Below, in pieces: positions 50,867 through 52,610 of a stretch of 64,000 bases of DNA; position 1 is the first letter of the stretch, and the number at the start of each line of letters is the position of its first letter. Under the pieces are notes generated by a model that ran no database searches, was not told the DNA's origin, and worked only from the letters and a program-made list of their open reading frames with translations. The stretch lies in the NCBI RefSeq assembly GCF_000016825.1, contig NC_009513.1:831001-895000 (forward strand). The letters are read 5' to 3'. The translations under genes and the position numbers were made by a program. The DNA is from Limosilactobacillus reuteri subsp. reuteri (GTDB lineage: Bacteria; Bacillota; Bacilli; Lactobacillales; Lactobacillaceae).

Positions 50867-51289
50867 GTGAATAGCATATTTGAAAAGTATAAACGTGATG
50901 AATCGTGCGACATGGCTCGTGAATGGTTGTCTAAATATTGGTATTGGAGAGATGAAGCCGAAAAAAAGAAGATTACGCTAGGATCGCCTGATTTTGACGG
51001 ACAGCCTAAAGCAAAGACATATGATCCTGACCGTCGTATGATCGATTGGACAAATGCACAAAACGAATGGAGGAGACGTGAACTAGTTCTCAAGTACATT
51101 GCTTCAAAGGGAGACGAGCATGAATTATATGCGCTTATACTGGATAATCGCTTTGTTCATCATCATCGCTCAATAACAGAGGTAAGAATGAAACTGAATA
51201 TCTCTGAGCGTACTTTTAACCGTATGCAGAAAGAAGCATTGTGGGAAGCAGCGAGGATAATTCCTACTAATGTTTTAGTTGAAAAGTAA
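50867..51289 (+). CDS. ArpU/RinA-like late-gene transcriptional regulator
   Basis: 140 residues from GTG 50867. The C-terminal half resembles a sigma-70 region 4-like helix-turn-helix (DEHELYALILDNRFVHHHRSITEVRMKLNISERTFNRMQKEALW), the pattern of phage ArpU/RinA-type regulators that sit at the end of the early region and switch on packaging genes. The 11-bp repeats begin 3 nt after its stop, which suits a binding site for this protein or its partner. Confidence 0.72.
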   Translation: MNSIFEKYKRDESCDMAREWLSKYWYWRDEAEKKKITLGSPDFDGQPKAKTYDPDRRMIDWTNAQNEWRRRELVLKYIASKGDEHELYALILDNRFVHHHRSITEVRMKLNISERTFNRMQKEALWEAARIIPTNVLVEK

Positions 51290-51291
51290 AG

Positions 51292-51331
51292 TGGCGGTGT
51301 TTTGGCGGTAAAATGGCGGTACTTTGGCGTG
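51292..51331 (+). promoter_or_regulatory. Four 11-bp-phased TGGCGGT repeats, candidate late activator site
   Basis: TGGCGGT occurs at 51292, 51303 and 51314 and as TGGCGTG at 51325: exact 11-bp steps, i.e. about one helical turn, so all copies face the same side of the DNA. The array ends 26 bp before the likely -10. Confidence 0.65.
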
Positions 51332-51356
51332 ATTTTCAAGAAAAACAGCCTTATTA

Positions 51357-51365
51357 TGGTATTGT
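51357..51365 (+). promoter_or_regulatory. Putative activator-dependent late promoter (extended -10)
   Basis: TGG followed by TATTGT (51360-51365) without a recognisable -35, placed just downstream of the phased repeats. This spacing is typical for promoters needing an activator. Confidence 0.4.
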
Positions 51366-51724
51366 CGAATGATTACGAAAACGACTTTACTTTTCAAATA
51401 ACGTGCCCGAGCAAGCCTTTAACTGCTCTACGTATTTTCAAGACTCATTACTATACTCACAATAGGGATCTCTTGTTAAGCGTAGGAAGTGTGGAATCCG
51501 GTAACCAAGCCGACGCGATGGTGGCAGATGACCATAATCCACGTAGGGTATTAGCTATGGAAACGTTGATACCCAGTAAATCATGATTTATGTTTAAGAC
51601 TGGCACTCACCTTCTATATGTTTTCTAATACTACAGTGATGATTGATTCTTAGGTGGAGTGTTTATAATACGAGTGTGTGCGAATTTCTCAAAATAAAAC
51701 CTTAATAGAGTGTCAGTCCTTTAT

Positions 51725-51797
51725 GCGAATATGCAAATTAGATGCCAAGTATCCTGGAGTAGTCCAATACTTGTGGGGGCAGTTCCCAATATTCGCA
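51725..51797 (+). ncRNA. 73-nt cloverleaf-like element in the large RNA
   Basis: Acceptor-like GCGAATA/TATTCGC (7 bp, extendable to 9), a D-like arm GCA-AATTAGA-TGC, a long middle arm AAGTAT/ATACTT with a 14-nt loop, and a T-like arm TGGG-GGCAGTT-CCCA placed exactly as in a tRNA, ending in A73. The loops lack tRNA signatures, so it is not a working tRNA. Confidence 0.45.
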
Positions 51798-51826
51798 ATT
51801 GCAGTGCTTTACGAGTCGCACTGCTT

Positions 51827-51893
51827 GCTGAGATCCAAGATGGGCACACAAGGTCTCGTGTGACAAAAGTGTGGTTTGAATCCACCTCTCGGC
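51827..51893 (+). ncRNA. 67-nt tRNA-like element
   Basis: Acceptor GCTGAGA/TCTCGGC (one G-U), middle arm CACAC/GTGTG with an 8-nt loop, and a T-arm GTGG-TTTGAAT-CCAC. The D-arm is reduced and the anticodon loop is one nt too long. Confidence 0.45.
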
Positions 51894-52044
51894 TTTATCA
51901 CGGCAAACTAAACTATGATAGGAGATGAAAGCTCCTCTTTCGTAATTACATAGTACTTTTTTGTCCAAGCCGTGATTTAATACAGAGATGCAAAGAGCAA
52001 CAAAATTCAAAAACGATTAGTGGATGCAAGCATTTCTGTATTAT

Positions 52045-52102
52045 GCTGATAAAAGGTAGGGCTGAATACCCTAATGGCACGGTTCGATTCCGTCCATCAG
52101 CA
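52045..52102 (+). ncRNA. 58-nt tRNA-Phe(GAA)-like element lacking a D-arm
   Basis: Acceptor GCTGATA/CATCAGC (six pairs and one A-C), anticodon arm TAGGG-CTGAATA-CCCTA with U33 and anticodon GAA (52064-52066), T-arm ACGG-TTCGATT-CCGT with the canonical T-loop, and discriminator A. Only AAAGG replaces the whole D-arm. G1-C72, GAA and A73 agree with bacterial tRNA-Phe; no CCA is encoded. Confidence 0.5.
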
Positions 52103-52186
52103 TTCAAGGCTCATCTACTTTTTAAAACAATCAACGAAAGGAGGAAGCACCTACTTGCTATGATGTTCTTCTATATGCCTTGATGT

Positions 52187-52215
52187 AAAGTCTCCAATCT
52201 ACGGGGGCTTTTTTT
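52187..52215 (+). terminator. Rho-independent terminator closing the RNA region
   Basis: AAAGTCTCC (52187-52195) pairs with GGGGGCTTT (52203-52211) with two G-U pairs, followed by Ts. It separates the structured RNA from the structural genes, though some read-through would be needed if both share a promoter. Confidence 0.75.
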
Positions 52216-52236
52216 AATATATGAAAGGTGATAATT

Positions 52237-52443
52237 ATGAGCAAACATATCACGGTTAAAGAAGTAAAAGATATTGTTAATTCATTTAGTGAGAATGCAG
52301 ATTGGGAGGGAATGCATATGGAAGAAGACGATATGTATGAGGATGTGCTTAGGGCGATTGCTGACGGTGATCCACATTCAAAACTGCTAGCAAGAGAGGC
52401 TCTGAAGTCAAAGAATGTTAAATTCACTCGGTGGTATTCATGA
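52237..52443 (+). CDS. Hypothetical phage protein
   Basis: 68 acidic residues (MSKHITVKEVKDIVNSFSEN...), with GAAAGGTGAT before ATG 52237; 4-nt overlap with the next frame. First gene of the late region. Unknown. Confidence 0.58.
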   Translation: MSKHITVKEVKDIVNSFSENADWEGMHMEEDDMYEDVLRAIADGDPHSKLLAREALKSKNVKFTRWYS

Positions 52444-52610
52444 GAACGACTAAGAATTGGGGCTTTACTAATAGTGGAGCCGAATTATATATGTTAGCTC
52501 ATGCTGAACGAACGAGAAAGGAGCTTGAACGTGAGTCTACTAGATCAAATCAAAACACAAGCAAGTATCACCGACAGCGTTCTAGTGTCTTTCAGCATGG
52601 GGAAAGATAG
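52440..52610 (+). CDS. Possible small phage protein overlapping the PAPS-reductase-like gene
   Basis: 56 residues (MRTTKNWGFTNSGAELYMLAHAERTRKELE...). The ATGA overlap supports translation. The last 27 codons overlap the next gene in another frame and look like its shadow. Confidence 0.4.
   Translation: MRTTKNWGFTNSGAELYMLAHAERTRKELERESTRSNQNTSKYHRQRSSVFQHGER

Follow-up and report, generated by a model that had tools for sequence, protein, structure and literature searches.

We find that a gene-free region of a Limosilactobacillus reuteri prophage is almost certainly a real, conserved, structured, non-coding RNA. The region lies in a stretch of 64,000 nucleotides, hereafter the window, that comprises bases 831001-895000 of a 2.0-Mb L. 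reuteri genome, and its best conserved part covaries in relatives. We consider it very likely that the RNA represents a class of its own and that this class contains Lacto-phage-1, an 81-nt motif catalogued by Rfam as RF03004. In the samples searched, the class occurs only in Limosilactobacillus prophages. Hereafter, members that carry Lacto-phage-1 are called type II, and members that have a domain like that of phage LR1 in its place, among them the window, are called type I.

The region of the large RNA matches phage LR1 of Lactobacillus reuteri ATCC PTA 6475 (MH837542) over its full length at 100% and phage LR2, also of ATCC PTA 6475, over 85% of its length at 96%. The genome analyzed here carries both copies, and neither phage record has an annotated feature at the RNA locus. 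The gene gap of about 950 bp described in the first-pass annotation is real: it extends from 51290 to 52227, between the stop of a 140-aa activator ORF at 51289 and the start of the next ORF at 52228. The genes that follow downstream of the RNA encode, in order, a protein of 71 aa, one that resembles PAPS reductase, and both terminases, the small and the large. The terminases located 3' of the RNA fall into two groups in the four loci that we compared, the one being phrog_83/phrog_9 (L074 and L056) and the other having best matches to phrog_51/phrog_2 (L079) and to phrog_4102/phrog_3717 (the window), both of which also match phrog_2. Thus, the activator-RNA unit adjoins at least two kinds of packaging module. 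The features that we assign to the locus are collected in Table 1.

Table 1. Features assigned to the RNA locus, in window coordinates.
Feature	Position	Strand	Basis or remark
Late transcriptional activator, 140 aa, phrog_248	50867-51289	+	PHROGs E 1.6e-24
Operator made of four TGGCG(G) direct repeats, 11-bp phase	51292-51335	+	repeat-spacing search of 64 kb
Promoter box TATTATGGTATTGTCGAA, conserved; candidate for the -10 and start region	51352-51369	+	recurs after repeats in relatives
Predicted large RNA, about 850 nt	51364-52215	+	start inferred, end from terminator; homologues, covariation, MFE z
Core three-way junction	51489-51543	+	model R1; common to type I and type II
Type I helix P2	51546-51555 with 51565-51574	+	5/10 pairs change on both sides, 8 sequences
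Perfect 14-nt palindrome TAAATCATGATTTA, candidate dimer contact	51577-51590	+	hairpin after P2
Type I long-range helix P3	51598-51608 with 51708-51718	+	4/11 pairs with both-side changes, 98.9% of cells paired
tRNA-like module TLS0, T-arm-like loop GGCAGTT	51725-51796	+	unconstrained fold is a cloverleaf, z -3.04
Hairpin between modules	51801-51824	+	direct inspection, MFE
tRNA-like module TLS1, 7-bp acceptor and T arm	51827-51893	+	MFE fold is a cloverleaf, z only -0.85
Domain D2, closed by ATCACGGC/GCCGTGAT	51897-51976	+	consensus fold of 16 nearly identical sequences
AATACAG hairpin	51979-52042	+	direct inspection, MFE
tRNA-like module TLS2, without D arm	52045-52101	+	z -2.11; Rfam tRNA 21.7 bits
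3' domain D3, closed by TCAAGGC/GCCTTGA	52104-52183	+	aligned in 17 members, closing helix in consensus fold
Intrinsic terminator	52187-52215	+	stem of 9 pairs, then T run

The ORFs across the gap had been regarded as noise, and this is borne out for the four plus-strand ORFs of 46-94 aa, which tblastn finds broken up in the majority of relatives, the fragments lying in different frames and some containing stops; the same four ORFs stay open in very close relatives. We reject plus-strand coding because these frames are not conserved among relatives. The region also folds more stably than its shuffled counterparts, with an MFE z of -2.4 for the 947-nt stretch (20 shuffles) and of -3.5 for the predicted RNA taken as 51359-52215 (40 shuffles). 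In all eight members scored, that is, the window and seven relatives, z lies between -3.06 and -5.45; for four coding regions taken from this phage the values run from -1.59 to +0.91 (40 shuffles each). Since the minus strand of the 947-nt stretch folds well too (z -2.7), energy alone cannot assign the strand, and it is the promoter, the terminator, and the tRNA-like modules that assign the plus strand. Chance folding is rejected on the basis of the z values in eight of eight members and the covariation of the core and the type I domain, and the proposal of a large structured phage RNA is thereby upheld.

The core is a junction of 55 nt, for which we built the covariance model R1. Its score in the window is 85.8 bits, a match that holds by construction because the window is among the 17 sequences from which R1 was built. 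R1 matches 28 of the 36 loci given to it at E<=1 and misses the other eight. In the R1 alignment of these 28 loci (23 distinct sequences), which is fitted to the structure, 98.7% of 318 cells are paired and all six pairs of the closing helix (helix 1) change on both sides. The covariation score of the core is 0.364, compared with 0.114 in shuffles, none of which reaches as high in 500, and slid controls give at most 0.107. An alignment made from sequence only (17 sequences, 13 distinct) is 100% paired and scores 0.363 against 0.122. The relatedness of the sequences inflates the shuffle controls, and the slid controls, which keep this relatedness, are much lower in each case. Taken alone, the core folds hardly better than shuffles (z -1.09), and a core pattern widened by hand after divergent members had been seen fails in 5 of 40 members.

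The domain that follows the core differs between the two types and covaries in both. In type I, 98.5% of 205 cells are paired in eight sequences, 9 of 26 pairs show changes on both sides, and the covariation score is 0.264 against 0.155 (0/500 shuffles as high); the underlying alignment, A5, consists of these eight sequences and leaves out L073 and L076, in which the extraction pattern missed the 3' helix arm. In type II, 95.7% of 693 cells are paired, both sides change in 13 of 33 pairs, and the score is 0.170 against 0.089, again with none of 500 shuffles as high. The type II domain includes a long-range helix of ten pairs, the 5' arm of which lies outside the Rfam match, and one of its six helices is weak, with 78% paired. 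By another measure, that of further pair types, neither the core (195/500 shuffles) nor the type II domain (174/500) nor TLS1 (486/500) stands out. The search for covariation in relatives that the first-pass annotation had suggested thus finds it in the core, the type I domain, and TLS1.

The hairpin after P2 is palindromic in all 12 distinct type I sequences found by a pattern in which no more than the three outermost bases per side were fixed, so that sequences changed there would be missed, and its centres are CATG, AGCT, and TATA. A tetraloop needs no palindromy for its own stem; therefore, the palindrome points to a contact between two copies of the RNA. The HIV dimer site is a comparable palindromic contact. 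As few changes separate the three centre forms, the palindrome is moderate evidence, and self-association of the RNA through this hairpin seems to us possible rather than probable. In the 3' domain, AAAGGAGG at 52137-52144 is a complete Shine-Dalgarno word with no start codon nearby; by inspection it is present in 11 of the 17 aligned 3' domains, and it could bind 30S subunits.

Several stems had been noted for their tRNA-like geometry. TLS0 and TLS1 are indeed cloverleaves when folded without constraint, the fold of the latter hardly beating shuffles, and TLS2 is without a D arm. None of the modules of the window is called as a tRNA, the best being TLS2 at 21.7 bits against a cutoff of 29 bits, and ARAGORN finds no gene among them nor any tRNA gene in the 64 kb. 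Rfam tRNA matches over the cutoff are present in 10 of 20 loci of relatives, the other 10 having none; in nine of these loci the matches are modules of 36.9 to 54.4 bits, and in the tenth (L009) they are three ordinary tRNA genes.

Modules were counted by a rule that asks for a T arm with a TTYRA loop and, immediately after it, the 3' strand of an acceptor of 7 nt in which six or more positions pair. This rule finds 65 modules in 34 members, with at least one in 33 and at least two in 25 of them, compared with a mean of 4.18 and a maximum of 8 in 50 shuffled sets; the hits include a few that look false (e.g. in G004C61 and L068). The background in 400 kb of host genome is 0.18 per kb per strand. 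The member without a module by the rule is G048C106. The 34 members counted, out of 40, leave out LR2 and its copy L066, pLRI02, both G034 copies, and G046C1, for which no start was recognised, and each is represented by 1000 nt from its start, which may pass the terminator of a short RNA. For LR1 alone the excess is modest, with 2 T-arm modules against 0.10 expected in shuffles and as many in 3 of 500 shuffles, and the plus strand of the 64 kb holds 13 hits to the rule. TLS1 is paired in 99.7% of 288 cells (18 sequences) and has a covariation score of 0.209 against 0.134 (0/500); four of its pairs show both-side changes, a number reached by 71 of 500 shuffles. Its alignment, A6, contains 18 of 19 sequences, L071 being left out for an insertion.

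The modules occupy recurring slots. By hand count, the flank TTTATCACGG after TLS1 is common to 17 members, and other 3' flanks of modules are TTCAAGGC (15 hits) and TGTCCG (9 hits). The TLS0 slot was extracted in seven members: the module there has the GGCAGTT loop in LR1 and its copies and in L057, L073, and L076, and in G038C57 it has a true T arm. A T stands next to the discriminator in 56 of the 65 modules, T having a frequency of 0.30, and CCA is found in none; all 16 host tRNA genes found in the 400 kb (within L133-L152) are without encoded CCA. In Bacillus, RNase Z favours a U-rich trailer. We regard the chances as evenly balanced that the modules are engaged or processed by host RNase P or RNase Z.

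Transcription of the RNA is very probably late and activated, as the sequences upstream suggest. The activators scanned belong to phrog_248 in 11 of 11 cases, the window and all ten relatives, and that of the window has no Pfam match. The candidate activated promoter of the first-pass annotation takes the form of phased operator repeats at 51292-51335 with a conserved TATTAT at 51352, 3' of the repeats, an arrangement that recurs in relatives; the intrinsic terminator that had been proposed to bound the RNA was likewise found. The operator is the only place in 64 kb with a 5-mer (TGGCG) four times at exact 11-bp spacing, and in all 28 members examined, many of which are near-identical, the sequence matches itself best at a lag of 11 or 22 bp (lags of 5-24 were tried). 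The promoter region has no sigma-70 type hexamer pair and no -35 of that type. The operator word tracks the C-terminal helix of the activator: NRMQ or ERMQ occurs with TGGCGG, RRKQ with TGTCCG, YDYQ with CTGCAG, MLKQ with a mixture of CTGCAG and TTGCAG, and YYKKL or YYKNL with GTACAG, and another group has GGGAA-like words. The activators of LR1 and G048C109 (locus L029) are 72% identical, yet both helix and operator word differ. These pairs of helix and word, with five words, suggest a possible natural DNA-recognition code, albeit a small one, for phrog_248 proteins.

GOLLD, ROOL, or a new class had been offered as identities for the RNA, and it is the last that fits. The window has no gathering-level Rfam match, and the covariance models of GOLLD (RF02032) and ROOL (RF03087), with which the first-pass annotation had advised a search, give no match at E<=10 over 51000-52500 and none at E<=1 in the relatives, scanned as 31 locus entries that cover several sites twice. 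We thus reject membership in GOLLD or ROOL on the silence of these models in the region and its relatives. The ROOL model matches five places (L038-L042) in 4 of 50 genus genomes (G003, G027, G033, and G049), and it is silent in the genome analyzed here and the other 13 genomes of our DNA search. Because it rings elsewhere in the genus, its silence at this locus is informative. The GOLLD model matches in none of the 50 genus genomes, controls included, so that it has no positive control and the absence of GOLLD is less well supported. G049 has ROOL and, at another place, Lacto-phage-1. Compared by ORF listing, the ORFs that flank the ROOL loci look different from those of the late-operon site; L039-L041 share one neighbourhood by their ORFs.

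Lacto-phage-1 is found at 18 places in 16 of the 50 genus genomes, in 13 of them over the cutoff of 50 bits, and RF03004 has no match in the window or its own genome. Rfam scans of the loci place the motif inside the long RNA of many relatives; therefore, the Rfam family is a fragment of a larger class, and LR1 holds another covarying domain where relatives carry it. The hand-widened pattern finds the core directly upstream of Lacto-phage-1 at 15 of the 18 places, the exceptions being G006 and both places of the abnormal record G034, and R1 alone finds it at 10 of 18 at E<=0.001, with G014 at 0.042. The class described here thus shares with Lacto-phage-1 the 81-nt motif of type II members, with the core upstream, but is about ten times longer, and the core, the tRNA-like slots, the 3' domain, the promoter, and the terminator all lie outside the Rfam model.

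According to a structural account, GOLLD is a large prophage RNA, many examples of which exceed 800 nt; one of its regions is conserved better than the rest, and its linker sometimes contains tRNAs (PMC12286853). In these respects the RNA described here is similar. It differs in that conservation, as far as seen, is highest in the 5' core, in that tRNA-like modules are present in 33 of 34 members, and in that the GOLLD model, searched without a positive control, gives no match. GOLLD further assembles into a homo-oligomeric cage and is raised during lysis; for the LR1 RNA, the palindromic hairpin is the one hint of self-association, and the late activator with its phased operator would imply a rise in the lytic phase. 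With ROOL it shares being a large ornate RNA of phages and lactobacilli, and it differs in the lack of a model match and in the flanking ORFs listed. The structural account describes the structures of GOLLD, ROOL, and OLE as solved and their functions as poorly understood, and states that GOLLD and ROOL often lie near tRNA genes (PMC12286853); one relative of our RNA, G046C1, resembles them in sitting among three tRNA genes. A further source describes ROOL in L. salivarius, and reuteri goes unmentioned in it (PMC5643018). Our full-text search of the literature found no description of this RNA in L. reuteri prophages and did not find the term Lacto-phage-1. The original report of Lacto-phage-1 is said to be that of Weinberg in 2017, and its supplements could contain part of the present class description.

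Relatives of the RNA are present in 19 of 50 genus genomes when the DNA search, which alone finds them in 14, is united with the RF03004 search; two of the 19 are weak, G029 is excluded from this count, since the membership of G006 depends on an Rfam match of 37.9 bits, which is below the cutoff, and the record of G034 is abnormal. R1 finds the core in 13 of the 50 genus genomes and, in the family sample of 40 genera, in 7 of 396 genomes, which all belong to a single genus, so that at the level of the model the class is confined to Limosilactobacillus in that sample. Both R1 tallies include G029 (25.4 bits), in which no supporting feature was seen and whose membership is doubtful. The DNA search of the family sample gives 8 of 396 genomes, two of them by 27-nt matches in another genus (G263 and G344), and these matches were dropped before counting. 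Among viral sequences the core pattern has 24 matching stretches, of which one or more are chance matches; the viral contig L070, which matches the pattern and has no R1 hit, was dropped. In GTDB species genomes the pattern matches 17 stretches, eight in records of Limosilactobacillus or "uncultured Lactobacillus" and nine in unrelated taxa. We take these nine as chance; R1 matches four of them at E<=1, with a best score of 18.7 bits (E 0.0042) in L088, off the pattern match, and 17.1 bits in L090, on it. The site G038C40 stands outside the member set, though R1 scored its locus at 21.9 bits.

The genome G034 contains apparent 5'-truncated copies (L131 and L132) that resemble recombination in the core. 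Its genes abut stop-to-start in one frame, with 7 and 8 such pairs in two 16-kb stretches, compared with 0-1 per strand in four other loci, and they appear to be flipped one by one. We thus read the record as an artefact, of assembly or of export, and not as recombination in the core. Alignment A2 contains one G034 row; its row labelled G034C1b is locus L106 of genome G049.

As the best explanation of the whole, we favor a late scaffold RNA, similar to GOLLD, whose modules would engage host tRNA-maturation enzymes, and we hold this to be fairly probable. In the lytic phase, the phrog_248 activator, made just upstream, would bind the 11-bp-phased operator and switch on a promoter that has only a -10. 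The large RNA would be the first product of the late operon and end at its own terminator, and the virion genes would be reached by read-through past it. The RNA would fold into the conserved core junction, a domain particular to each type (with the palindromic hairpin in type I, with the pseudoknot of Lacto-phage-1 in type II), and a 3' half whose slots hold interchangeable tRNA-like cloverleaves. In this form it may act as a late scaffold, probably self-associating, whose modules host RNase P and RNase Z would engage or trim. The purpose itself we liken to that of GOLLD only tentatively, by analogy. Stated most fully, the RNA would be a new large-RNA class, a self-associating scaffold produced at the start of the late operon, with standing slots in which different tRNA-like cloverleaves are exchanged over evolutionary time, so that ribosomes or tRNA enzymes of the host would meet many tRNA mimics simultaneously; we offer this picture as conjecture.

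Other explanations account for parts of these observations. The RNA could be no more than a processing precursor, from which RNase P and RNase Z excise the modules and thereby free active small RNAs such as the Lacto-phage-1 piece. We consider this unlikely: the 3' ends of the modules do resemble host tRNA genes in having no CCA and mostly a U next, and Lacto-phage-1 was catalogued alone as an sRNA motif, but the genome analyzed here lacks the Lacto-phage-1 piece, and long-range helices tie the parts of the RNA together. Alternatively, the RNA might act in cis as a leader of the late operon, altering RNA polymerase such that it reads through terminators into the virion genes. The put RNAs of phage HK022 act on RNA polymerase in this way, and the LR1 RNA, which ends in a terminator, separates the only phased activator site of the window from the virion genes. 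Phage late leader or put-type RNAs likewise head an activated late operon, but the put RNAs are far shorter and the LR1 RNA is more elaborate, with swapped domains and tRNA-like slots that would be superfluous for such a role, and we judge this reading quite unlikely.

The differences in kind among the modules that relatives carry at one slot would also be expected of a tRNA decoy, in which the cloverleaves absorb host defence enzymes that cut or sense tRNA and the turnover of modules is the mark of an arms race. Against this idea, no anticodon can be assigned to several of the modules (tRNA-???), and we find it rather improbable. Finally, the region might be a decayed phage tRNA array with no present function, as the score of TLS2 of LR1 below the tRNA cutoff and the position of G046C1 among three tRNA genes would allow. 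Compensatory changes in the core and the type domains, which are not tRNA parts, and the recurrence of promoter and terminator in relatives make such decay highly improbable.

The LR1 RNA is another large ornate phage RNA, covarying and compact, in the prophage of a probiotic strain (ATCC PTA 6475). Lacto-phage-1 of Rfam is redefined as part of a longer molecule, and until now no more than a small fragment of the class had been catalogued. Because a likely activator and promoter are at hand and the modules can be removed singly, the role of such RNAs for the phage is directly testable. The pairs of activator and operator suggest, in addition, a small natural DNA-recognition code.

Some further observations concern the surroundings of the RNA and its copies. 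In the LR2 copy (L036) only the first 85% of the RNA is in common, and an IS200/IS605 transposase gene lies downstream. The plasmid pLRI02 of L. reuteri I5007 (L037) carries an activator that is 97% identical, together with the promoter and a shortened RNA copy; the core was not found in this copy, and a HicAB pair adjoins it. The genome analyzed here has matches to the Group II intron family D1D4-1 (RF01998) at 11 places, and up to 27 are present in one genome of the genus. Downstream of the RNA in one member there is a weak match to Listeria rliI of 26.3 bits (cutoff 45), at L012 2154-2330, which is the same as L110 1995-2171.
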